Source: Bacteroidales bacterium
Lineage (GTDB): Bacteria > Bacteroidota > Bacteroidia > Bacteroidales > WCHB1-69
NCBI GenBank assembly: GCA_016282395.1
Contig: JAEEKL010000257.1
Span: 1-34,970 of the forward strand
Direction of reading: 5' to 3'
DNA length: 34,970 nucleotides
In this document: positions 11,239-33,095 of the stretch, in pieces
Numbering within the stretch: position 1 is the stretch's first letter
Layout of the letters: every line of letters begins with the position of its first letter
Program-made: the position numbers and the translations under genes
Notes under the pieces: generated by a model
Database searches by the model: none
What the model was told of the DNA's origin: nothing
What the model saw: the letters and a program-made list of their open reading frames with translations, nothing else

Positions 11239-12234
11239 TTATTCGTTATCTATATTATACTTTTCTACATTCATACCAAATTCCAAACCCTTGTTGTGGA
11301 CTAACTCTTCCAGTTCAGCAAGCGACTTCTTACCGAAGTTGCGGAACTTGAGCAGGTCAGCCTTATGGAAAGCAACCAAATCACCCAAAGTTTCCAACTC
11401 TGCGGATTTCAAGCAGTTGAGTGCTCTCACAGAGAGATCCATATCAATAAGTTTGGCTTGAAGAATCTGACGGATATTCTTTTCGCTGTCCTCGGTCACC
11501 TCCTGGCTTTCAACCTGATCCTGAGATTCGAGAGCAATATTTTCATCCGAGAGCAGGGCAAAATGCTGAATCAGAATTTTGGCAGCCTCTTGGATAGCAT
11601 CCTTCGGATGGATGGAACCGTCCGTATCCACTTCTATGATCAGCTTCTCAAAGTCGGTCTTTTGTTCGACACGATAAGGCTCAATCGTATATTTAACGTT
11701 ACGGATAGGCGTGTGGGTGGAGTCAACGGCAATCACATCAATACCGTCATGGAGCTGGCGGTTGTCCTCAACAGGAACATAACCACGACCCTTGTCGATG
11801 GTGATTTCCATGTTCAGACGGACGGTGGGTTCCATACGGCATATCAGCAATTCCGGATTCAACACTTGGAAATAGTTGAGATAGCGGTTCATATCGCCGG
11901 CTGTAAACGTGTCCTGGCCACTGATGACGATGGAGACTTTCTCGGAAGTATAACCCTCGACCTTATTTTTCAAGCGAACCTGTTTGAGGTTGAGGACTAT
12001 GTCGATGACATCTTCCATAACGCCCGGTATGGACGAAAACTCCTGCGCGACGCCTTCGATTTTCACAGAGGTAATGGCATAGCCTTCCAATGAAGAGAGC
12101 AGCACACGGCGCAGGGCATTGCCCACGGTGACACCGAAACCTTGCTGCAGCGGACGAAATTCAAATATGCCGTGAAAATCGTCGGCCTCATTCATGATGA
12201 CCTTATCGGGTTTTTGAAATGTTAATATTGCCAT
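11239..12234 (-). CDS. rpoA: DNA-directed RNA polymerase subunit alpha
   Basis: This 331-residue alpha subunit nucleates RNA polymerase assembly. The N-terminal dimerisation domain includes [17 protein letters not shown] (about 38-54). An acidic linker near residue 240 ([16 protein letters not shown]) joins it to the C-terminal DNA- and activator-contact domain ([20 protein letters not shown]). Length is normal. It follows rpsD across a 115-bp spacer with TTGTGAC repeats and precedes rplQ by 4 bp. Confidence 0.98.
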
Positions 12235-12255: not shown

Positions 12256-12283
12256 TTGTGACTTGTGACTTGTGACTTGTGAC
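12256..12283. repeat. 7-bp tandem repeat TTGTGAC x4 in the rpsD-rpoA spacer
   Basis: Four perfect TTGTGAC units are followed by degenerate versions (CTATGAT, TTGTGAT). They lie in the only long spacer (12235-12349) inside the ribosomal operon. No promoter match was found in the spacer. It belongs to the 7-bp-period spacer class seen elsewhere in the window. Confidence 0.9.
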
Positions 12284-12349
12284 CTATGATTTGTGATTGT
12301 TTGTCATGAGATAACCAACCTCTATTCACTGTTCACTATTCACTAATCA

Positions 12350-12955
12350 CTATTTAGAGTACAACTCGACGATTGCTTGCTCGTTGATGGTTTCCGGAAT
12401 TTCCTCGCGCTGAGGATATTGCATAAACTTGCCAACCTTGAGGTTGCCGTCCCATTCGAGCCATGCGAAATTCATCGCCTTGCCGCTGAGAGAGTTCTCA
12501 ATCACCTCAAGGGTTTTGGAACGCTCGCGAACCTCCACAGTGTCACCCGGTTTCAGCAGCATGGAAGGGATGTTGCTGATTTGGCCGTTAACGGTGATGT
12601 GACGGTGAGTGACCAGCTGACGGGCAGCATTACGGGTGGGGGCGATGCCCAAGCGGAACACCACATTGTCGAGACGGGACTCGATGAGTTGCATCAAGTT
12701 CTGACCCGTGACACCTTTCTTGCGGGATGCCATGTGGAAGAGTTTACGGAACTGGCGCTCCAGAATACCGTAGGTGTATTTCGCTTTCTGCTTCTCCTGC
12801 AACTGCATACCGTACTCAGAGAGTTTCGTGCGTCTGCGAGACTGACCATGCTGACCCGGAGCATAGTTCTTTCTTTCGAAATATTTGTCGGGACCGTAGA
12901 TGGGTTCCTTGAATTTTCTTGCGATTTTCGTTTTGGGTCCTGTATATCTTGCCAT
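12350..12955 (-). CDS. rpsD: 30S ribosomal protein S4
   Basis: This is a 201-residue S4, a primary 16S rRNA binder that starts small-subunit assembly. The N-terminal basic arm ([15 protein letters not shown]) and the S4 RNA-binding domain ([20 protein letters not shown], about 90-110) are intact. It sits between rpsK and rpoA, the normal alpha-operon order. In many bacteria S4 represses its own operon. No such site can be pointed to here. Confidence 0.98.
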
Positions 12956-20049: not shown

Positions 20050-21138
20050 TTACCTGATTGAAATCCTGTCAATGATAATCTTTCTGTCCTTGGCAGCCTG
20101 CAGGCCATACACTGTTTCGCGAACTTCGTTGGTGGAGAAGTTGTGGTTAATCTGGCCTTCGGGGACGCGGTGGATGGTGAGGCCGGGCTTGCTGCCGTTG
20201 ATGTAAGGCGCGAGGACACCGCCGTTAGCTCTTGCCATATAGTTGAGGACGCTCTGGATACGACGGGAAGAGAGTTTCTTGTTATAGTCGCTGTTGCTGA
20301 GCGGGCTGGCGAAACCGCTGATGGTGAACTCCACCTGATGGCCGTCCTGAAGGGCGTCAACGAGGAAGTTGGTGAGTTTCACGAGGCGGTCATAACCCGT
20401 CTGGATGGAGTCGTTGAAGAAATTCTCCACCGCATTTTCGGCGCTAGTCTTCTTCGCTCCAGTCAAGCCTTTGCCAGCACTGGTAATATAGGTATTCTTG
20501 GCGGACATATAGTTGTTGTAGAGACCCATATATTCGGTGTTGGTGGTTTCTGTGCGGGTGCGCGGGTCGGGACGGTCGTTCTCGAAATAGAGGGTGATAG
20601 GCTTTGCGACATCCTTCTTCATCTTTTCCATCTCCTCTTTCTTCTTCTCAGCGGCCACCTCATCCTCGTAGATAAACGTCACGGGAATTTGGACAATCAT
20701 ATCCTGCGGCTCGCAGCTTTGGGTGGACGGAATCATTTTCGGGAAAGACTTCACCACGCGGAGTGCCTCATCATCAAACTCCTTATAGCCGGAGCTGCTG
20801 ACCACCTCGATGTCCGTCAGGGTGCTGTCCTTCAACACCTTGGCCTGAACGGTCGTCGTACCGGAAATTTTCTGGTTCTTAAGGTTGACGGGGTACTTTT
20901 TGGTTTTGTTGATGTAGCGGCACATAGCCTTGTTGCCGCCCTTGAATGTGGGGAGAGTCATAGCTGCAGTGGGGACTTCGTGCTGTCCATTGGAATCCGC
21001 GAAGACAATAGCGTAACCTGACTTCTGTCCTTTCTGACCATACACATTGCCCTTGTCACACTGCGCATAACTCATTGTGAAACAAACCGTTAAAAACAAA
21101 ACGGCCACTAATTTCAAAGAGGAAAAATTACTTTTCAT
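20050..21138 (-). CDS. Periplasmic TonB_C-OmpA-like fusion protein
   Basis: This 362-residue protein has a signal peptide (MKSNFSSLKLVAVLFLTVCFTMSYAQ). Residues about 57-160 match a TonB C-terminal domain (FKGGNKAMCRYINKTKKYP..ISGTTTVQAKV..GYKEFDDEALRVVKSFPKM). A short Lys/Glu helix (161-178) leads to an OmpA-like domain (180-362) with VEFTISGFASPLSNSDYNKKL and SSRRIQSVLNYM. Usual TonB domains are anchored by an N-terminal membrane helix. Here a cleavable signal suggests a free periplasmic or outer-membrane-linked protein. In the OmpA domain the Arg of the peptidoglycan site seems kept, but the usual GHTD reads GFAS, so the Asp is missing. It may bridge peptidoglycan and outer-membrane receptors, which is inference only. 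It has its own promoter and terminator. Confidence 0.82.
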   Translation of the reverse strand: MKSNFSSLKLVAVLFLTVCFTMSYAQCDKGNVYGQKGQKSGYAIVFADSNGQHEVPTAAMTLPTFKGGNKAMCRYINKTKKYPVNLKNQKISGTTTVQAKVLKDSTLTDIEVVSSSGYKEFDDEALRVVKSFPKMIPSTQSCEPQDMIVQIPVTFIYEDEVAAEKKKEEMEKMKKDVAKPITLYFENDRPDPRTRTETTNTEYMGLYNNYMSAKNTYITSAGKGLTGAKKTSAENAVENFFNDSIQTGYDRLVKLTNFLVDALQDGHQVEFTISGFASPLSNSDYNKKLSSRRIQSVLNYMARANGGVLAPYINGSKPGLTIHRVPEGQINHNFSTNEVRETVYGLQAAKDRKIIIDRISIR

Positions 21139-21178: not shown

Positions 21179-21248
21179 CATTTTTTATTTATATAATGAC
21201 ACAATAATTTTTTTTTGCTCATTAAACACATCATTTTTGGGAAAATCG

Positions 21249-21304: not shown

Positions 21305-24300
21305 ATGGATAAAAGATTTACTTTCAGTTGGTTAGTACTGATTTCGGTAGCCTTTTTGCTATCCGTCAACAGCACACTGCTTGCACAAAGTCAGCAATTC
21401 CACACCGACACTGTCTATCATCAGGAGTTCGGGTGCGACAGTTTTCTGCTAACGGCCAATCATACCTATTTCCATAATGACACCGTAGTGAAGATTCCAC
21501 ATTATGTCGCCGACCAAGGAATTGTCTATATGGATGTGCTGGATGTGTATCAAATTGTCATCGGGCACAGCTACACGTACAAAGACACCGTGACGGCGCG
21601 AGTGTGCAGAAACAACCTGCCGTATGCCTACCACGGGAATTTCTACACCCAGACCGGCAACTATTGGGTCCACATACCCACGCTGCAAGGGTGCGACAGC
21701 CTCAGCACCCTGGTGAAGTTGGTGGTGTTGGAGGGACAGAAAGACACCACTTTTGCCTCGATGTGTAATGCGGAGCCTGTCGTGGTCAACGGCATCACAT
21801 TCACCAACCCGGGAACATTCAACTTCCCGCAAGGAGTGGACGAAGACGGATGTCCTGTGGTACAGACCTACGTAATCACCCCCTACACAGTGGGAACTGA
21901 CACGGTGGACATCATGGTCTGCGAAAACGAACTTCCATATACCTACATGGGTTATTCGTTACCCACCCAAAACAACTACAGGGTACCCTACGTGTCCGAA
22001 GGCGGATGCAATGCCATCAAATACGTACGACTCAGAACATGTCCCATCTATGAAATCTACGACACGGTTGACGTGACTGTTTGCGAGATCGACATGCCCT
22101 ACGAGTATGGGGGCGAAACGTTTAACGAATCCGGAACCTACCAGATTCCCGTCCCCAACCAGTGCGGATGTGACAGCGCTTTCGTCACACTGAACCTGCA
22201 AGTCACACAACCACAGACAGAAACTGTGACGCTGACCCTTTGCGAGGGTGATTTCCCGTACAGTTACGATTCGCTCCATGTCTTCTCGGAACCGGGTGCG
22301 TACTACATAAATGAGGATGCCGATTCCACCTGCACCCATTTCACCTATCTGGTCCTGAATGCGTACCATCCCCTCTATGACACAATAAACATTTGTACTC
22401 CAGACAGTTTCTATACTTATAGGGACACAACTTTCACTTCCTCAACAACTTACACCTATTATGACACGAATGCCTATAATTGTGTGGATTACCTCACATT
22501 GAAGATAAATTTGAACTCTCAACTTGTTTATGACACGGTTAATGTGACAATTTGCGAATCCGAAAAACCGTTCGTGTTTGAAGAGAGCGAATACTGGTTC
22601 CCAGGCATTTACGATGTGATGATTCAAAACCAACAGGGGTGTGACAGCGCAGCCGTCAGGTTCCAGTTGGAGATGATTCCGAACGCGACTGTGAGCAGAG
22701 ATACGGTCATCACCCGAAATGATCTTCCTTTTGTATATTACGACAGTGTGTTCACGAAAAGCGGTCTCTATTGGATGCAGATTCCTGCGGCTCCAGAGGA
22801 TGGGTGCGACACAATCCTCTATTTTAACCTTACCATTCAACAACAATATTTCCAACTGATAGACACCACGGTTTGTGAGGGCACCGTAGTGGAATACCTC
22901 GGTGAGGAAATTTCCACGGCGGGTCCCCACGAGTTCATCTACCATTTTGCGGGCTATGACAGCATCATTACATTGAACGTACACCATCTGCCCAGGTATG
23001 TGGACGAAACTGTCTATGTGGAATTGGGCGAGTATGACCTGCCCTATTTGTTCGCCGACAGCGCATACTTTGAGGCTGGCTACCACGAGCGGGTGCTGCA
23101 AACGGTGTCGGGATGTGACAGCTTGGTTTCCTTATACCTTACCGTGATTCCTGCCATCATTAACAATGACACCTTGTACCGGGAAGTGTGTTCCAATGAC
23201 ATGCCCGTCACATTGTACGACAGTTTGCTTACGGAACCCGGTGTCTATCGCTACTTGATCCACACGGAAGAGTCCTCCATTGACTCCGTGTTTTATGTAC
23301 GGCTGAATGTGAAAGAGTCGCCGACACTGATTATCGCCGACACCTCGTATCTATGTGCGGAGAGCACGGCAACCCTGACGGCCCAGTCCACGGGAAGCCT
23401 TTATGTGTGGAGCAACGGGGAACAGATGCCATCCATCACAGTGAGCCTGCCCGGAGTGTATGGGGTCACCGTGACCAATGCCTTTGAATGTTCCGCTTCG
23501 GCATCCGTCCAGGTTATCCCAGTGGAACTGCCGGATGCCTTGGTGATAGGTGACAACGAGGTGTGCTATGGCAACAACCTGATGCTGCAAGCGATAGGCG
23601 GAACAGACTTTTTATGGGATGACGGCTCCACAACGAACGTCATCACCGTTTCCCCAACTGAGAACGTCACCTACACAGTCACGGTCAGCAACGTATATGG
23701 ATGTTCAGTGGTGAAAGAGCACACCGTCACGGTGAACCCGCTGCCACAGTTAGTCATCCAAGGCAACAACAGTATATGCTCAGGATCCTCCACCACATTC
23801 CATGTCTCAGGAGCTATGAGCTACACCTGGAACAACGGAAGCCATGCCAACCAGATCACGGCGAACACTTCGGGAACTTATTCGGTGACGGGCACCGACC
23901 CCAAAGGTTGCCGCAACTCGTCATCCGCTACTTTGACCGTTCATCCGCTACCCGTCATCCAAATTAACGGACGAAATTCCTTCTGCCAGGGCGGCAACAC
24001 CACGATAACCGCCACGGGCGCCAGCACCTACGTATGGAGTTCCGGCGAGGTGACGCAGTCCGTTGTGGCCGACCATGCCGAGCAATACACGGTGACGGGA
24101 ACCGACCAATATGGCTGCACCGCCACGAGCAGCGTCATCATCTCCCAGTCCACGGTAAACGCCAGCATTTCCGGGAACACCTATCTATGTCACGGCCAAG
24201 GCACCACCCTGACGGTTATGGGAGACGACGGGAACACCTACCGCTGGTTTGACGGCAGCACCAACAACACCATCAACATCAATGCCGCGGGAACGTATTC

Positions 24301-27300
24301 GGTCACGGTGACCAACACCAACGGCTGCCAGAACACCCTGTCTGCCATGGTGAACGAATACAACACGACAGTGCCGACCATCAGCGGGAACCTGACTATC
24401 TGTGAGAATCAGACCACCACGCTGCGTGCCTCCGGCGGGAGCACCTACCTGTGGGATGACGGAAGCACAGGACCGATGATCACGGTGGGCGCAACCGGCA
24501 CCTATTCGGTGACCGCCACGGGTGCTTACGGCTGTACGGCTACGACTTCTGCCACAGTGCTGGTGAATCCCATACCGACCGTCAACATTCTCTCACTGGG
24601 TACAATTTGTAAAGACGACGAGGTGACGCTGACCGCCATATCCAATGCCGGAACGTTTAATTGGAACTCCGGACAGAACACGGCGGCCATCACAGTGTCA
24701 CCGACAGTGAACTCCACATATACCGTACTGGTGACCGATGAGAACGGCTGTTCCAACACTGCTTCGACACAGATTACCGTGAACCCGCTCCCCCAGCTAT
24801 ACGTATCGGGACAGACTTCCTTCTGTCAGGGCGACACAGCGCAGCTGAACGCCACGGGCGGCGTGTCCTATTTCTGGAACAACGGCCAGTATGACGCCAG
24901 CATCAGCGTCACCACGCCGGGGACCTACACAGTGACAGCAACGGGTGCCAACGGTTGTGAGGCAACGGCGCAGCTGACCGTAACGATGAACCCGCTCCCG
25001 ATCGCCACCGTGACCGAATCGGTGGAAATCTGTCAGGGACAGCAGGCACAACTTTCAACAGACGCCCCTGCGGGATGCACTTACACGTGGTCAACAGGAA
25101 GCCACCAAAGCAGGATTTTCACCTCGGAAGCCGGCGAATACCAAGTGACCGTGACCAATGCAAACCAATGTTCACGGGTTTATCAGTCATACGTCATTGT
25201 GCATGAATTACCTGTCATTAACATCATCGGTGAAGCTGAAATATGCCAAGGACAGAGCACAACCCTTACCGTCAATGGCGATGCGGTTGCGCAATATAAT
25301 TGGAGCAGCGGCGACCAGAATGCCAATATCACGGTCAGCACCCAAGGCCAATATTCCGTGACGGCCACCAACAGTTACGGTTGCACCGCTACAGCGTCAC
25401 GTTCGGTGGTGGTTCATCCCTTACCGGTAGCGACAATCAGCGGAACCCTGGCAGTATGTAAGGATGCCAGCACCACGCTAACAGCCACAGGCGGTGTTTC
25501 CTATCTGTGGAGCACCGGCAGCACGGCAAGCAGCATTTCGGTGTCCCCCACCGAAAGCCAGTCCTACTCGGTGACGGTGAGTGACGCTTACGGATGCGAG
25601 TCGAACACATCCGCATCTGTTACGGTGAACGCTCTTCCACTCATCAGATTCAGTGGACTCACCACTATCTGTGCAGGAACCAGCACGAATGTCACGGCAT
25701 CAGGGGCCAACACCTACGTATGGTCCACGGGAGGCCAAAACGCCACCGTTTCACTCAGTCAGGCCGGCATGTATTATGTGACAGCCACCAACAACCACCA
25801 GTGTGTGAACACGGATTCTATCCAGATAACCGTGAATCCGAACCCTGACGTGCAGATTTCAGGAGATGACTACGTCTGTTTGGGCAGTACCATGTCGCTG
25901 ACCGCTTCCGGTGCCCAAAGTTACCAGTGGAACACGGAGGAGGTTTCAGCTACCATTGCCGTATCACCGGCGGCAAACACCACCTATTCCGTCACGGGCT
26001 ATGACGCGAACGGATGCCAATCCACAGCTTCAAAAGTGGTGAGTGTCAAATCGTTGCCCGTAGTTACAGTGTCTGGTTCGCAGACCATCTGCGCTGGCAA
26101 ATTCGCCATACTGACAGCTTCAGGCGGTTCCTCCTATTTGTGGAGTACGGGCAAGGTGGGTAATACGCTCACCGTGTCCCCGTCCGGCAACCAGACGTAT
26201 GTGGTGACAGCAACCAACGACTTCGGTTGCTCTGCCAGCCTGGACGTTCCGATAACCGTCAACCCGCTGCCGACCGTCAACTTCTTGGGCAACACGACCA
26301 TTTGTTCGGGAGCCACAACCAGTATCACGGCTGAAGGCGGCAACTCCTACAACTGGTCCACAGGCGGGCACAATGCCACCATCAACATCAGCAACGCCGG
26401 CATGTACTATGTAACCGTCACGAACTCCCAGAATTGTTCTCGGACAGACTCCGTATATGTGACCGTGAATCCGAACCCAAGCTTGCAAATTGAAGGTCCC
26501 AGTTACATCTGCTTGGGTGATGTGACCAGCCTTACCGTTTCCGGTGCACAGACCTACGTTTGGAATACGGAGGAGATGTCAGCCACCATCAATGTGGCGC
26601 CGTCCGTCACCACGACATACACCGTCACAGGCTATGACACGAACGGTTGCCAGTCCACCAACGCCAAAGTGGTGAATGTGGAAGCTCTGCCTACAATTTC
26701 CGTGTCCGGAAACAAGACCATCTGTATCGGACAGTCCACGACACTCACAGCCACTGGCGGAGTCAACTTCCAGTGGAGCAACGGGGTGACGGGTAACAGC
26801 ATTGTGGTCTCCCCCACCTCAACCCAATCCTACGTGGTGACAGTAACCAACAGTCTTGGCTGCTCGTCAAGTCTCGAAACAACGGTCACCGTGAACAGCC
26901 TCCCGAATATCACATTCAATGGCACAACGGAAATTTGCGATGGCGCAACAGCCACGATTACCGCTTCCGGCGGTGTTTCCTACCAATGGTCGAATGGCTC
27001 ACACTCCGCTTCCGCGAGCATTACGGAAGAGGGATACTACCGTGTGACGGCCACGAACGCACAGAATTGCGTGAATCTGGATTCCGTGTTCGTGAAAGTG
27101 AATCCGAACCCGGTGGTGCAAATCTCCGGCAGCAACTACGTATGCGCCGGCGGCATCACCACCTTGACAGCATCGGGTGCGCAAACCTATCTTTGGAATA
27201 CGGAGGAGGTCTCTCCCTCCATTTCCGTCACCCCTTCCACTGCCACCACCTACACCGTCACGGGTTATGACCAGAACGGCTGTAGCATGACCGTGAGCAA

Positions 27301-29899
27301 GGTGGTAAATGTGGAGGCTCTTCCTAACATCCAAGTGCTCGGTACCCGTACCATCTGTGCGGGCCAGTCCGCATCTCTGACTGCTACGGGCGGTTCGGTC
27401 TATCTATGGAATACGGGTGACACCATCAGTGACATCGTGGTTACTCCGATGACAAGCCAATCCTACGTGGTGACAGTCACCAACGCATACGGCTGTCTGG
27501 CCAGCTCCGCCGTCACGGTGACGGTGAATGCGCTGCCACAGATTCACTTCAACGGGAACACCACCATTTGCGCCGGCACCACCACCACCATCTCCGCCAT
27601 CGGCGCCAGCTCCTACTCCTGGTCCACGGGAGCGCAGACTGGCAACCTGAATGTCAGCAGTACCGGCATGTACTATGTCACGGCCACAAACGCCCAGAAC
27701 TGTTCAAAGACAGACTCCATATATGTTACAGTGAATCCGAATCCAGTAGTGCAAATTCTGGGCAATAACCACCTCTGTTTCGGAAGCATCGCCACGCTGA
27801 CCGCCACAGGTGCCTCCACCTACAGTTGGAACACCGGCGAGAACACCGCCGAAATCTCCATCGCACCGGAAAGCAACACCACCTATTCGGTTACGGGTTA
27901 TGATACCAACGGCTGTTTCGCCACCGTTCAGAAAGTGGTGAATGTGGAAAGCCTCCCCGAAGTGCAGATTCTGGGCAATCGCACCATTTGTCAGGGCCAG
28001 TCCACCGTACTGACCGCTATGGGCGGCAACACCTACTTGTGGAGTAATGGCAGCAACACACAAAACATCGCCATCTTCCCCAATGTCAGCACGACATATA
28101 CGGTGACGGCTTACAACGCCTTCGGGTGTTCCACCGTCGAATCCGTCTTGATTACGGTGAACGTCCTGCCGTCAATTGTATTTAACGGAAGCACCTCCAT
28201 TTGCCAAGGGGAAAGCACAACGATTACCGCCACTGGCGGAAACACCTATTTATGGAGTACAGGAGCCAACACCAACAATATCACTGTGTCAACTCCTGGC
28301 ATGTATAAGGTGAGCGTGACAAACTCCCTGAATTGTACGCGAATGGATTCTGTAAACGTTGTCGTGTGGGACAACCCCACCGTCAGTATCAACGGCAACA
28401 GCCTGATATGCCAAGGATCGGTGGCGTCACTGACCGCTTCCGGTGCGGAGACGTATCTGTGGAACACGGGCGAGTCAAGCGCGGCCATCACGGTGATGCC
28501 AGAGCAAACCACCACCTACAATGTCATCGGCTATGATGAGCACGGCTGCAGCAGCACTGTCAGCAAGGTGGTTAATGTGGAGGCTTTGCCGCAGGTGTTT
28601 ATCTCCGGCGAATTGGCCATCTGCCATGGCACCTCCACCACGCTCACCGCTTCAGACGCATACTCATACGTCTGGAGCACGGGCTCTACAGCGAACAGCA
28701 TCACGGTGTCCAACCAAGGTGCCTATACGGTGACAGTCACTTCCGAGAACGGATGCCAGTCAATAGCCTCGGCAACCGTCGTGGACAACCCATTCCCGAC
28801 ATTCACATTGAACGGACCTGATGACATCTGCGAGAACACCACGGAAACTTTGTCTGTCACAGGCGATTACACCTATTTGTGGAGTACGGGCGAAACGACA
28901 ACTGACATCACCATCACCACGGGTGGCGTTTACACGGTGACCGCCACCAACGATTACGACTGCTCTGCAACCGCCAGCGTGAATGTCAACCTGCTGCCTG
29001 CGCCAGAACTCACCATCATGGGGGTCTCGACCTTATGCCAGGGCGACACCACCGTGCTGACCGCATCCTCCGATGCCGTCGAGTACGTTTGGAACACCGG
29101 GGACAGCACGCAAAGCATTGTCGTGATTCCCGACAACTCGCTCTATACGGTTACGGTGACTGGTGCAAACGGCTGTACCTCCACGACCCAGCATCTGATC
29201 ACCACACTCCCCGTTTACGACATCACCGTCAATGGCGCGATTTGCGAGCATCAGGGATTCAACAATTACGGCTTTGACATTCCCGTGATAGATACGGCCG
29301 GAACTTACACCTTTGTCCAGAATTTGCAGACGGTCACCGGCTGCGACAGCACAATCACCCTGTTGCTGACCGTACAGCCGCTGCCTCGCTTGGACACCAT
29401 CAACGGGCCGCAAAACATCACCCAATATGGTAATGTTTACTACTCCATCAACAATCCGCAATACGCGAACTCCTACGAATGGTTGATTTCCAACACCCAC
29501 TGGACAATTGATTACAGCTATAACAATGCCACGCTGAATGTCAACAACAACGGCACCGGCATACTGACCGCTCGCGGCATCAACAACTGCGGATATACGG
29601 AAATCACCCTCAATCTCTACTGTAACGTCGGTATTGAGGATTATCCCGCCAATGCCGTGGTTACCCTCTATCCAAACCCCGTCCAGCAGTCGCTGTACAT
29701 TAACACAGAGAACGCCCCCGATATCAGCAAGGTGCGCCTTTACAACGAGGCGGGCCGATTGGTCTATCAGACTGACTGCAACGACACACACTTCGAAATC
29801 GACTGTACCCGCTTCGCAAACGGCCACTACACCGTACAGTTCCTGAACGAGAAAGGACGGCGAGTGGAATCCCGTAAAATTGTCGTGAAGAATAACTGA
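21305..29899 (+). CDS. Giant T9SS-secreted repeat adhesin (2864 aa)
   Basis: A very large surface protein. The ATG at 21305 gives a clean signal peptide (MDKRFTFSWLVLISVAFLLS..LLAQ). The frame stays open to an ATG at 21215, but that start would bury the signal. Residues about 30-672 hold about 12 modules of roughly 50 residues with the pattern TVCExxxPYxY...GCDSxxxLxL. Residues 673-2637 hold 28 Ig/PKD-like modules of 69-72 residues (..TICxGxSTTLTASGGxSYxWSTG..YTVTVTNxxGC..VTVNPLP), each with two cysteines. One CDS-type module returns after them (ICEHQGFNNYGFD..GCDSTITLLLTV). The last 80 residues (TLYPNPVQQSLYIN..ESRKIVVKNN) form a type A T9SS sorting domain, so the protein should cross the outer membrane by T9SS and be anchored or released. 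Fifteen modules form five exact 633-bp triplets. An adhesion role is inferred; the ligand is unknown. Confidence 0.93.
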   Translation: MDKRFTFSWLVLISVAFLLSVNSTLLAQSQQFHTDTVYHQEFGCDSFLLTANHTYFHNDTVVKIPHYVADQGIVYMDVLDVYQIVIGHSYTYKDTVTARVCRNNLPYAYHGNFYTQTGNYWVHIPTLQGCDSLSTLVKLVVLEGQKDTTFASMCNAEPVVVNGITFTNPGTFNFPQGVDEDGCPVVQTYVITPYTVGTDTVDIMVCENELPYTYMGYSLPTQNNYRVPYVSEGGCNAIKYVRLRTCPIYEIYDTVDVTVCEIDMPYEYGGETFNESGTYQIPVPNQCGCDSAFVTLNLQVTQPQTETVTLTLCEGDFPYSYDSLHVFSEPGAYYINEDADSTCTHFTYLVLNAYHPLYDTINICTPDSFYTYRDTTFTSSTTYTYYDTNAYNCVDYLTLKINLNSQLVYDTVNVTICESEKPFVFEESEYWFPGIYDVMIQNQQGCDSAAVRFQLEMIPNATVSRDTVITRNDLPFVYYDSVFTKSGLYWMQIPAAPEDGCDTILYFNLTIQQQYFQLIDTTVCEGTVVEYLGEEISTAGPHEFIYHFAGYDSIITLNVHHLPRYVDETVYVELGEYDLPYLFADSAYFEAGYHERVLQTVSGCDSLVSLYLTVIPAIINNDTLYREVCSNDMPVTLYDSLLTEPGVYRYLIHTEESSIDSVFYVRLNVKESPTLIIADTSYLCAESTATLTAQSTGSLYVWSNGEQMPSITVSLPGVYGVTVTNAFECSASASVQVIPVELPDALVIGDNEVCYGNNLMLQAIGGTDFLWDDGSTTNVITVSPTENVTYTVTVSNVYGCSVVKEHTVTVNPLPQLVIQGNNSICSGSSTTFHVSGAMSYTWNNGSHANQITANTSGTYSVTGTDPKGCRNSSSATLTVHPLPVIQINGRNSFCQGGNTTITATGASTYVWSSGEVTQSVVADHAEQYTVTGTDQYGCTATSSVIISQSTVNASISGNTYLCHGQGTTLTVMGDDGNTYRWFDGSTNNTININAAGTYSVTVTNTNGCQNTLSAMVNEYNTTVPTISGNLTICENQTTTLRASGGSTYLWDDGSTGPMITVGATGTYSVTATGAYGCTATTSATVLVNPIPTVNILSLGTICKDDEVTLTAISNAGTFNWNSGQNTAAITVSPTVNSTYTVLVTDENGCSNTASTQITVNPLPQLYVSGQTSFCQGDTAQLNATGGVSYFWNNGQYDASISVTTPGTYTVTATGANGCEATAQLTVTMNPLPIATVTESVEICQGQQAQLSTDAPAGCTYTWSTGSHQSRIFTSEAGEYQVTVTNANQCSRVYQSYVIVHELPVINIIGEAEICQGQSTTLTVNGDAVAQYNWSSGDQNANITVSTQGQYSVTATNSYGCTATASRSVVVHPLPVATISGTLAVCKDASTTLTATGGVSYLWSTGSTASSISVSPTESQSYSVTVSDAYGCESNTSASVTVNALPLIRFSGLTTICAGTSTNVTASGANTYVWSTGGQNATVSLSQAGMYYVTATNNHQCVNTDSIQITVNPNPDVQISGDDYVCLGSTMSLTASGAQSYQWNTEEVSATIAVSPAANTTYSVTGYDANGCQSTASKVVSVKSLPVVTVSGSQTICAGKFAILTASGGSSYLWSTGKVGNTLTVSPSGNQTYVVTATNDFGCSASLDVPITVNPLPTVNFLGNTTICSGATTSITAEGGNSYNWSTGGHNATINISNAGMYYVTVTNSQNCSRTDSVYVTVNPNPSLQIEGPSYICLGDVTSLTVSGAQTYVWNTEEMSATINVAPSVTTTYTVTGYDTNGCQSTNAKVVNVEALPTISVSGNKTICIGQSTTLTATGGVNFQWSNGVTGNSIVVSPTSTQSYVVTVTNSLGCSSSLETTVTVNSLPNITFNGTTEICDGATATITASGGVSYQWSNGSHSASASITEEGYYRVTATNAQNCVNLDSVFVKVNPNPVVQISGSNYVCAGGITTLTASGAQTYLWNTEEVSPSISVTPSTATTYTVTGYDQNGCSMTVSKVVNVEALPNIQVLGTRTICAGQSASLTATGGSVYLWNTGDTISDIVVTPMTSQSYVVTVTNAYGCLASSAVTVTVNALPQIHFNGNTTICAGTTTTISAIGASSYSWSTGAQTGNLNVSSTGMYYVTATNAQNCSKTDSIYVTVNPNPVVQILGNNHLCFGSIATLTATGASTYSWNTGENTAEISIAPESNTTYSVTGYDTNGCFATVQKVVNVESLPEVQILGNRTICQGQSTVLTAMGGNTYLWSNGSNTQNIAIFPNVSTTYTVTAYNAFGCSTVESVLITVNVLPSIVFNGSTSICQGESTTITATGGNTYLWSTGANTNNITVSTPGMYKVSVTNSLNCTRMDSVNVVVWDNPTVSINGNSLICQGSVASLTASGAETYLWNTGESSAAITVMPEQTTTYNVIGYDEHGCSSTVSKVVNVEALPQVFISGELAICHGTSTTLTASDAYSYVWSTGSTANSITVSNQGAYTVTVTSENGCQSIASATVVDNPFPTFTLNGPDDICENTTETLSVTGDYTYLWSTGETTTDITITTGGVYTVTATNDYDCSATASVNVNLLPAPELTIMGVSTLCQGDTTVLTASSDAVEYVWNTGDSTQSIVVIPDNSLYTVTVTGANGCTSTTQHLITTLPVYDITVNGAICEHQGFNNYGFDIPVIDTAGTYTFVQNLQTVTGCDSTITLLLTVQPLPRLDTINGPQNITQYGNVYYSINNPQYANSYEWLISNTHWTIDYSYNNATLNVNNNGTGILTARGINNCGYTEITLNLYCNVGIEDYPANAVVTLYPNPVQQSLYINTENAPDISKVRLYNEAGRLVYQTDCNDTHFEIDCTRFANGHYTVQFLNEKGRRVESRKIVVKNN
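25427..28591 (+). repeat. Five tandem 633-bp triplet super-repeats inside the adhesin
   Basis: Modules 11-25 follow a strict A-B-C order. Type A (71 aa) ends like VTVNALP. Type B (69 aa) has GMYYVTATNxQNC and ends VNPNP. Type C (71 aa) has YxWNTEEVSAT, VTGYDxNGC and VVNVEALP. Triplets start at 25427, 26060, 26693, 27326 and 27959, each exactly 633 bp with no indel. The register breaks after 28591. Confidence 0.95.
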
Positions 29900-29912
29900 T
29901 AACGAATATGTT

Positions 29913-29940
29913 GTAGAGACGCAAAATTTTGCGTCTCTAC
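29913..29940. repeat. Perfect 28-bp palindrome after the adhesin gene
   Basis: The arm GTAGAGACGCAAAA is followed directly by its reverse complement, with no loop. It starts 14 bp after the adhesin stop. It could fold into a strong hairpin and end transcription, though a U-run is lacking. It resembles REP-like repeated palindromes found in many copies in some genomes. Copy number cannot be seen here. Confidence 0.75.
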
Positions 29941-29941
29941 C

Positions 29942-30029
29942 AATCACCAATCACCAATCACCAATCACTAAACACTAAACAAACACCAATCACCCCGCTT
30001 CAATAACCCATAACCCATAACCTATAACC
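29942..30029. repeat. 7-bp tandem spacers before leuS
   Basis: Two heptamer families fill the spacer: ACCAATC units grading into ACTAAAC (29942 on), then ATAACCC, ATAACCC, ATAACCT, ATAACCA at 30003-30030. The second family ends 9 bp before the leuS ATG. No TAnnTTTG promoter was seen in 29900-30038. Confidence 0.9.
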
Positions 30030-30038
30030 ATTACAAAT

Positions 30039-32873
30039 ATGGAATATAACTTCAGAGAAATCGAAAAAAAGTGGCAAGAAAAATGGAAAGAAACAGGTTT
30101 GTATAAGACCGAAATTGATCATAACAGACCGAAATACTATGTACTGGACATGTTCCCGTACCCGTCAGGCGCAGGGTTGCATGTGGGGCATCCGCTCGGC
30201 TATATCGCCGCCGACATCGATGCGCGCTACAAACGTCAGAAAGGCTTCAACGTGCTACACCCTATGGGTTACGATGCCTTTGGCCTTCCAGCCGAGCAGT
30301 ATGCCATCCAGACTGGCCAGCATCCGGCGGTGACCACCGAGAAGAACGTCAACCGTTACCGCGAACAGCTTGACAAAATCGGTTTCTCGTTCGATTGGGA
30401 ACGCTCGTTCAAAACCTGCGACCCCGACTATTACAAATGGACGCAGTGGACGTTCGTCCAGCTGTTCAAATCCTACTATTGCTACCAAGCCAACCAAGCC
30501 CGCCCAATTTCCGAATTGGAAGAGGCTTTCGCCGCCAATGGCACGCTTGGTTTGGAGGTGGCGCAGACCAAGCCGATGGAGTTTACTGCCGAGGAGTGGA
30601 TCGCCGCTTCCGAAAAGGAAAAGCAAGAAATCCTGATGAACTACCGTCTGGCCTATCTCGCCGACACGTGGGTGAACTGGTGCCCGAAACTCGGCACGGT
30701 ACTTGCCAACGATGAGGTGGTGAACGGACTCTCTGTGCGCGGCGGCTTTCCCGTGGAACGCAAACTGATGAGACAGTGGATTTTGCGCGTATCCGCATAC
30801 GCGGAACGTCTGCTCCAAGGGCTTGAAAAAGTTGATTGGACGGATTCCCTGAAGGAAATCCAGCGCAACTGGATAGGTCGCAGCGAAGGTGCCGCCGTGT
30901 GGTTCCCTCTCGCCAAACAGGAACCGTCCGACTGGAAAAAAATCTACATGGGTGATTATGAAGGGGTGAAAAATGAGGCTGCATTCGAGATCTTCACCAC
31001 CCGCCCCGACACCATCTTCGGTGTGACGTTTATGGTCTTATGTCCTGAACATGAGATGATAGACCAAATCACCACACCTGAACAGAAAGCCGAGGTAGAA
31101 GCTTACGTCACGTGGGCCAAGAACCGTTCCGAGCGCGAACGTCAGGCGGAAGTCAAGAAAGTGAGCGGCGTCTTCACCGGCGCATTCGCCATCAATCCAA
31201 TCACCGAAGAGCGCATCCCCATCTGGGTGAGTGACTACGTGCTGTCAGATTACGGCACCGGCGCCATCATGGCCGTGCCAGCACACGACAGCCGCGACTT
31301 TGCTTTTGCAAGACATTTCAATCTACCTATCCGTCAGGTGGTTGCACCTGCCGTGGATGAGGTCAGCGACCCTGACACGTGGGAGGAATCCATGGACAGC
31401 AAAACGGGCGTTTGCGTCAACTCGGGCTTCATCACCGGCATGACCGTCAAGGAAGGCGGCAAAGCCGTGATTGAGAAGATCAAGACGATGTGTGTCGGTT
31501 ATGGCACAGTAAACTACCGTCTCCGCGACGCCATCTTCAGCCGCCAGCGCTACTGGGGCGAACCGTTCCCTGTCTATTACAAGGACGGAATGCCTTATCC
31601 GATTCCCGAATCCGAACTTCCCTTGCTGCTTCCCGAGGTGGACCAGTTCCTGCCCACCGAGACAGGCGAGCCGCCGTTGGCCCGCGCCAAAAACTGGACC
31701 CACAACGGTTATCCGATGGAATACAGCACCATGCCCGGATTCGCCGGCTCCAGCGCGTACTACCTGCGCTATATGGATCCGAAAAACGATAAAGAATTGG
31801 TTTCCAAGGAGGCTGACGAATATTGGCAGAATGTTGATCTGTATGTCGGCGGCGCGGAACATGGTACAGGACACCTCATATATGCCCGTTTCTGGAACAA
31901 ATTCTTGTTTGATATAGGCATCAGCTGCAAGGATGAGCCGTTCCAGAAGCTCATCAATCAGGGCATGATCCAGGGTCGTTCCAATTTCGTTTATCGTGTG
32001 GTCGGGACCAACAAGTTCGTCTCTCTTAATCTCAAAAAGGAATACGAAACCACGCCTATCCATGTGGATGTCAACATTGTACACAACGATGTGTTGGACA
32101 TTGAGGCTTTCAAGAATTGGATGCCCGACTTCAAGGATGCCGAATTTATCCTCGAAAACGGCCAATACATTTGCGGTTGGGAAATCGAAAAGATGTCTAA
32201 GTCGAAATACAACGTGCAGAATCCTGATGATTTGGTGGAAAAATACGGTGCAGACACGTTGCGCATGTATGAGATGTTCCTTGGCCCGGTCGAGATGGCC
32301 AAACCGTGGGACACCAACGGCATCGAGGGTGTTTCCCGTTTCATCCGCAAATTCTGGAAACTCTACTTCGACGGCGAGGGCAACTTTAATGTCATTGACG
32401 AGGAACCGACCAAAGCCGAGTGGAAGACATTGCATAAGACTATCAAGAAGATTGAGGAGGACAACGAACGTTTCTCCTTCAACACGGCGGTAAGCGCGTT
32501 CATGATCTGTGCAAACGAACTGAACGACGCCAAGTGCAACAAACGCGCCATTCTTGAGCCGCTCTGTATCCTGATGTCGGCGTATGCTCCGCACATCACC
32601 GAAGAACTTTGGTCGCTGCTTGGACACGAAGAATCAATCTTAAAGGCCACCTATCCGATTTATGACGAGCATTATATGGTAGAGGACGAGTATCTGTATC
32701 CTGTCTCTTTCAATGGCAAGATGCGTCTGAAAATGTCGTTCCCAGCTGATTTCGGTCCTAAAGATATTGAACCCAAGGTGTTGGAAAGCCCCGACGTACA
32801 GAAATGGCTTGCAGGTGCTACCCCGAAGAAAGTGATTGTTGTGCCGAAAAAGATTGTTAATATCGTGTTTTAA
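30039..32873 (+). CDS. leuS: Leucyl-tRNA synthetase
   Basis: This 944-residue class I synthetase charges tRNA-Leu with leucine. The signature [12 protein letters not shown] is at 40-51 (HVGH is the HIGH motif) and KMSKS is at 718-722. The large CP1 editing domain lies between (..[15 protein letters not shown].. near residue 325 and [16 protein letters not shown] near 405), so mischarged tRNA can be hydrolysed. The insertion just before KMSKS ([20 protein letters not shown] on) and the length fit Bacteroidota LeuRS. The ATG at 30039 starts the conserved N-terminus. It is flanked by heptamer-repeat spacers on both sides. Confidence 0.98.
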
Positions 32874-32875
32874 AT

Positions 32876-33087
32876 GGTTATTGGTTATTGGTTATTGGTT
32901 ATTGAGTTTGGTTATTGATTATTGGTTATTGGTTATTGGTAAATTGGTAATTGAGTTTGGTTAAAAGAGGCTGATTCTTGATTATAGTTGACCATAAACC
33001 ACCACCAATCTTTTCAATAACCACTAACCCCAACTATAACCTATAACCTATAACCTGTCAATAACCTATAACCCATAACCTATAACC
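32876..33087. repeat. Opposed 7-bp repeat arrays between leuS and the flippase gene
   Basis: On the leuS side are about eight GGTTATT units (32876-32940) with two GAGTTT interruptions. On the flippase side are AATAACC/ATAACCT/ATAACCC units (33016-33087). GGTTATT is the reverse complement of AATAACC, so the arrays form a large imperfect inverted repeat around a short central loop. The second array ends 8 bp before the GTG start. No promoter match is seen in the 222-bp spacer. Confidence 0.9.
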
Positions 33088-33095
33088 TTTACAAG

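Follow-up and report, generated by a model that had tools for sequence, protein, structure and literature searches.

We found that a single open reading frame in a 34,970-nucleotide stretch of Bacteroidales DNA (the window, meaning the whole stretch analyzed) probably encodes a giant, T9SS-exported, surface-attached fibre, with a shaft of 28 Ig_7-type modules whose middle part grew by tandem duplication of three modules at a time. Modules 11–25 form five A-B-C triplets, each exactly 211 amino acids long (71 + 69 + 71; 633 bp). With boundaries set 30 residues before the Trp, this fifteen-module block occupies 25418–28582. The preliminary description had given 25427–28591; the triplet phase is arbitrary, and both intervals are 3165 bp long. 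Multi-module duplication is already known as a process. The unexpected point is that, when congeners differ in module number, they nearly always do so by a multiple of three, also where the change is out of register with the repeat; one clade, which has a five-module unit, is the exception. Features are listed in Table 1.

Table 1. Features of the fibre gene and its downstream neighbour (positions in the window)
Feature	Position	Strand	Remarks
Giant fibre protein ORF	21305..29899	+	Single ORF; ATG start, stop at 29899; 2,864 aa
N-terminal part: signal-like segment and ~9 small beta repeats (DTVxxxVCxxxLPYxY...GCDS)	21305..23317	+	AF2 pLDDT 76.9; no known domain
Outer Ig-like modules m1-m10	23318..25417	+	Irregular spacing 69 71 69 70 69 70 71 71 71 69
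Triplet T1 (m11A-m12B-m13C)	25418..26050	+	633 bp; pairs with T1 of other species
Triplet T2 (m14A-m15B-m16C)	26051..26683	+	633 bp; in the tree, outside the T2 clade of other species
Triplet T3 (m17A-m18B-m19C)	26684..27316	+	633 bp
Triplet T4 (m20A-m21B-m22C)	27317..27949	+	633 bp; nearest to T4 of five-triplet and T2 of three-triplet species
Triplet T5 (m23A-m24B-m25C)	27950..28582	+	633 bp; C-terminal triplet common to all ABC-clade species
Outer modules m26-m28	28583..29209	+	m26 A-like, C-to-A linker kept
T9SS type A C-terminal sorting domain	29666..29896	+	PF18962 and TIGR04183 above cut-offs
leuS	30039..32873	+	Conserved downstream neighbour, marks the locus in 31/33 congeners examined

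Each of the 28 modules is 69–71 amino acids long and carries a conserved Trp together with two or more Cys, and a short C-terminal region lies between the last module and the sorting domain. The frame is likewise open from an upstream TTG at 21215. As read from the sequence, the N-terminus is hydrophobic and signal-like (MDKRFTFSWLVLISVAFLLSVNSTLLAQ). The small beta repeats behind it span about 640 amino acids, and the N-terminal part as a whole measures 671–675 amino acids across the leuS-linked ABC clade. An AF2 model based on 26 orthologues shows another chain of small beta repeats, with a moderate pLDDT of 76.9. No known binding domain was recognized among the Pfam matches of this part, and a PDB fold search gave no convincing match. 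The view of the protein as a stalk presenting a tip is unproven, and is weakened by an N-terminal part that lacks a recognized binding domain. The window also contains short tandem arrays, namely intergenic ones with a 7-bp unit (29939–29994, 32875–32953, 33034–33088, 12256–12300 and 12322–12354), some of which flank leuS on both sides, and ones with an 11-bp unit at 1002–1157.

One triplet, predicted by AF2 with a five-row alignment, folds into three all-beta domains (pLDDT 95.8). The best PDB matches found by Foldseek are fragments of GhpA (TM 0.73–0.75), and a sequence profile matches GhpA in 22 stretches with an E-value of 1.2e-89. The modules belong to the Ig_7 family (PF19081; 131.1 bits, cut-off 27.3). 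GhpA, the grappling hook protein A of Aureispira sp. CCB-QB1, is a giant protein that a member of the Bacteroidota secretes through its T9SS (PMC11205867). The likeness to GhpA (PDB 9flp and related entries) is one of homologous Ig-like modules, by both sequence and fold. However, GhpA is about twice as long (5,898 amino acids) and forms a heptameric hook used in predation; the fibre is known here from sequence and predicted fold, and the likeness seen at that level is in the modules.

The sorting tail scores 37.3 bits with PF18962 (cut-off 27) and 29.9 bits with TIGR04183 (cut-off 23). The source genome encodes T9SS machinery, including SprA (2405 bits) and GldL, as well as about 90 further sorting tails. 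The two marks of a T9SS type A cargo, a C-terminal sorting domain and the machinery, are thus found within one genome, and the fibre protein is predicted to be exported by this system and attached to the surface. It may function as a stalk or adhesin, and a signal peptide, a disulphide in each module and a rod shape are likewise putative. Several further giant ORFs containing Ig_7 (2,100–3,300 amino acids) occur on contigs C112, C110, C70, C7 and C195 of this genome (G000).

The preliminary description had proposed five triplets of exactly 633 bp that arose from a three-module duplication unit, and both proposals hold. From m11 onward, the Trp-to-Trp spacing reads 71-69-71 five times with no exception; ten 71s and five 69s placed at random would show such strict periodicity with p = 0.001. 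Self-comparison of 25427–28591 gives peaks of nucleotide identity at offsets 633 (60%) and 1266 (59%), as against 41% at offset 213 and 36% at 207. Amino acid identity within the core is 0.57, 0.55, 0.56 and 0.49 at lags 3, 6, 9 and 12, respectively, and 0.37–0.39 at other lags, and none of 20,000 label shuffles matched the within-class identity observed. In an HMM-aligned comparison, each of the 15 core modules has its nearest relative a multiple of three modules away, while adjacent core modules are only about 38% identical. All 15 therefore have their closest relative more than one module away, as is characteristic of multi-domain tandem duplication. The module tree contains a B clade (95/83) and a C clade (100/99), the A modules do not come out as a supported clade, although the tree allows a single A group, and no triplet forms a clade. 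Neighbours as closest relatives, which had been named as evidence against such a unit, were not seen in this tree, where the kinship of every third module holds.

The three types can be told apart by their residues. B and C stand as types in the sense of clades, and A remains a single compatible group without clade support. The type-specific motifs described in the window are kept across 14 related species. There, the C consensus starts with P-N-P, contains G-Y-D-x-N-G-C and ends in K-V-V-N-V-E, and the B consensus has F-x-G-n-T, G-x-Y-x-V and D-S. The linkers differ by type as well, in that P-L-P opens A and B, and P-N-P opens C. The motif NTEEV is not a full diagnostic of C; the window has NTGEN in T4 and NTGES in T5. 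The B module is short because two residues are missing from the “SPTxxQSY” loop (“xxGMY”). Given that the motifs hold over the 14 species, each position of the triplet keeps its own character at the level of sequence. The type-specific residues lend support to different surroundings for A, B and C, and perhaps to contacts between modules; the distinct role or contact that the preliminary description suggested for each type is hypothetical. The outer modules had been described as not following the pattern. This view does not wholly hold for m26, which retains the C-to-A linker (NVE-ALP) and is nearest to an A module, m11 (0.55), so that the array reads (ABC)5-A′. We also considered m8–m10 as a decayed sixth triplet, and found no support for this; m10 is not C-like, and similarity at lag 3 is not raised among the outer modules.

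A profile of the triplet matched 135 of 148 relatives. The array gene was taken from 33 congeners, represented by draft assemblies, mostly MAGs, with one genome per species. It lies directly upstream of leuS in 31 of them, and we therefore regard it as one orthologous locus. In L132 and L137 (G033 and G034), the fetched stretch has the array gene without an adjoining leuS. No leuS-linked array gene was detected in the family's other genera. The leuS tree sorts the species by type of super-unit, into an A-B-C clade (SH-aLRT 100), a five-module clade (71-71-69-71-69, in two or three copies; SH-aLRT 88), a 70-70-71 three-module clade (SH-aLRT 99) and a species pair with a 71-69-69 unit. The leuS-linked orthologues with the five-module unit are L138, L143, L142, L145, L146 and L147. 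Between species, the number of triplets at the locus ranges from one intact copy to five; G006 and G021, which hold m1–m9, C4, T5 and m26–m28, have one. The spacing of m1–m10 is identical in G036, G012, G031, G013, G017, G009, G003, G026 and G039. The G017 orthologue breaks within the array into two frames that overlap (L123, around 12028–12125), which could be a frameshift or a sequencing error. Upstream of the fibre gene, on the minus strand of the window (20053–21138), is a gene whose product has a TonB C-terminal domain and matches OmpA below threshold. Its relative occurs downstream of leuS and a flippase gene in several congeners (L119, L125, L128 and L129), and local gene order has therefore changed.

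The triplets can be followed by position between species. In five-triplet species, T1, T3, T4 and T5 each find their nearest relative at the corresponding position of another species. The copies of three-triplet species match T1, T4 and T5, those of two-triplet species are T1/T4-like and T5, and the last triplets of every ABC-clade species form one clade (100/99). The window T2 stands apart from other T2s in a free tree; a shared origin of all T2s is not rejected (AU p 0.11), and an independent origin of the window T2 is accordingly not upheld. Because same-position triplets are mostly each other's closest relatives across species, most of the array probably predates these species. It probably grew N-terminal to the conserved last triplet, a direction that we infer from unrooted trees.

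This kinship also bears on two other explanations of the repeat. If the triplets were a mis-assembled, collapsed or expanded repeat, as could be feared of a draft genome fragmented into 269 contigs and 69% complete, the copies should be easily confused. However, they are 49–59% identical (41–51% different) at the protein level, with all pairs about equally distant, and equal positions recur in independent assemblies of other species. The preliminary description had named an assembly artefact as a possible refutation, and we regard it as extremely unlikely. Recent or ongoing homogenization (concerted evolution) could account for the similarity at period three, but is scarcely more credible. Among the five window triplets, four have the same-position triplet elsewhere as nearest relative and none has another window triplet, an AU test rejects a single clade of all five (p 0.0002), and four-fold sites approach saturation, with a mismatch of 0.54–0.61 within classes versus about 0.65 at saturation. 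Corresponding modules of successive triplets are 56–68% identical in nucleotides. We dropped both explanations given the divergence of the copies, their positional kinship and the AU test. Homogenization is contradicted for the window species, and is possible for lineages such as that of G018. In this member of the 70-70-71 clade, modules 10–15 (L149) stem from a very recent three-module duplication, with 91–96% amino acid identity and changes at 2–4 of 30–42 four-fold sites. Since four-fold sites in the window are nearly saturated, the constant 633-bp length appears to be a constraint on module length rather than a sign of youth.

Under duplication of three-module blocks, an ancestor would have had one or two A-B-C blocks beside the C-terminal outer modules. 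Extra blocks would have been inserted N-terminal of these, mostly before the five-block species split, and each block would then have diverged in place. Changes in copy number would alter the length of the shaft and leave the fixed N-terminal part and the C-terminal sorting tail untouched. The copying mechanism may be in-register recombination, as sister species suggest; the window itself contains no visible recent in-register event. What stands against this account is that the recombination register leaves three-module indels in the outer modules unexplained.

Module counts of congeners are 16, 19, 22, 25, 28 and 34, all 1 modulo 3, and the exception is the five-module clade (26, 21 and 18). 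When pairs with more than 55% identity are aligned module by module, 92 of 102 gaps comprise 3, 6, 9 or 12 modules. Gaps of 5 (8/102) occur within the five-module clade only, and gaps of 1 (2/102) reflect a single module of G024 that escaped detection. Gaps from different pairs are not independent of each other. We count roughly 11 separate events of a multiple of three versus two of five, a count that takes in, from another genus, the G042/G076 difference and a duplication inside the array of G083; the excess of three-steps has p of about 2e-4 under a crude null of one in three, with our own event count and a pattern noticed post hoc. Some three-module indels are off register: m7–m9 in G014, m10-A4-B4 in G006/G021, m9-m10-A in G002 and G033, and the first three modules in G025/G038/G005. 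The flanking modules are no more alike at lag 3 than at other lags, and the recombination register alone is therefore insufficient.

One explanation would be structural phase: if modules are rotated by ~120 degrees, three make one turn, only three-step indels keep the fibre ends in phase, and selection removes others. It would account for nearly every within-genus gap, including the off-register ones in outer modules with no extra similarity at lag 3, and G042 and G076 are likewise three apart. Against it, the five-module clade breaks the rule, other Bacteroidota arrays have periods 2, 4 and 5, independent events are few, and the rule is a post hoc one. In the other genus, the counts of G042, G076 and G083 are 17, 20 and 23, whereas G058, with 22 modules, departs from this series, and module number is not clean modulo three in other genera. 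We consider structural phase unlikely. The fuller claim, that selection conserves Ig-module number modulo three with three modules as one turn and that one clade escaped to a five-module unit, is more doubtful still. A universal three-module rule for Ig_7 arrays is excluded by other Bacteroidota with periods 2, 4 or 5 or with nearest-neighbour expansion. The Ig_7 arrays surveyed in other Bacteroidota, and in an Ignavibacteria MAG, include super-repeats of period 4 (L088, L107) and 2 (L091, L075, L064, L114), and L054 has periods 3 and 5.

Alternatively, multi-module duplication may be favoured in that it keeps neighbours unlike and avoids misfolding, with single-module units selected against. 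Neighbours in tandem-domain proteins are generally divergent, which probably limits misfolding (PMC4660218), and the genus fits this proposal; 694 adjacent module pairs have a mean identity of 0.38 and a maximum of 0.52, versus up to 0.97 for modules three or five apart. However, low neighbour identity is also an automatic outcome of multi-module duplication, and in surveyed Labilibaculum arrays neighbours are 68–73% identical, so there is no general rule. We consider this explanation improbable, if slightly less so than structural phase.

SprB-type adhesins are giant surface proteins exported by the T9SS (PMC11205867). The fibre is likewise giant and predicted to be T9SS-exported; this is a resemblance only, and its Pfam matches include no SprB-repeat domain. 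Like Periscope Proteins (PMC8201768, PMC9704523), which are surface-attached, as the fibre is predicted to be, the fibre has constant ends and a shaft in which the number of domains varies. By contrast, Periscope Proteins have near-identical repeats, unlike the fibre at either the protein or the DNA level, and the variation seen in the fibre is between species, whereas theirs is within a population. Periscope Proteins also have an N-terminal ligand-binding domain; the N-terminal part of the fibre is modelled as a chain of small beta repeats in which no known domain is recognized. Repeats often expand by several domains at once and in the middle of the array, as in the seven-domain units of nebulin (Bjorklund et al. 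2006, PMC1553488). Higher-order domain duplication is also seen in the A-band super-repeats of titin (PMC10665226). The fibre shares with them the copying of several domains together, the addition of copies inside the array and positional identity within the super-repeat. However, it is prokaryotic and has no exons, and sister clades have units of different size at what is a single conserved locus.

In one syntenic gene over some 30 species, the locus shows how a giant surface fibre of bacteria has lengthened and shortened by blocks, with blocks traceable by position and sister clades that use other block sizes. Fibres of uncultured gut Bacteroidales are tied by it to GhpA, by far the best match among solved structures. 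It is a good natural case for studying how long bacterial surface fibres gain and lose length.
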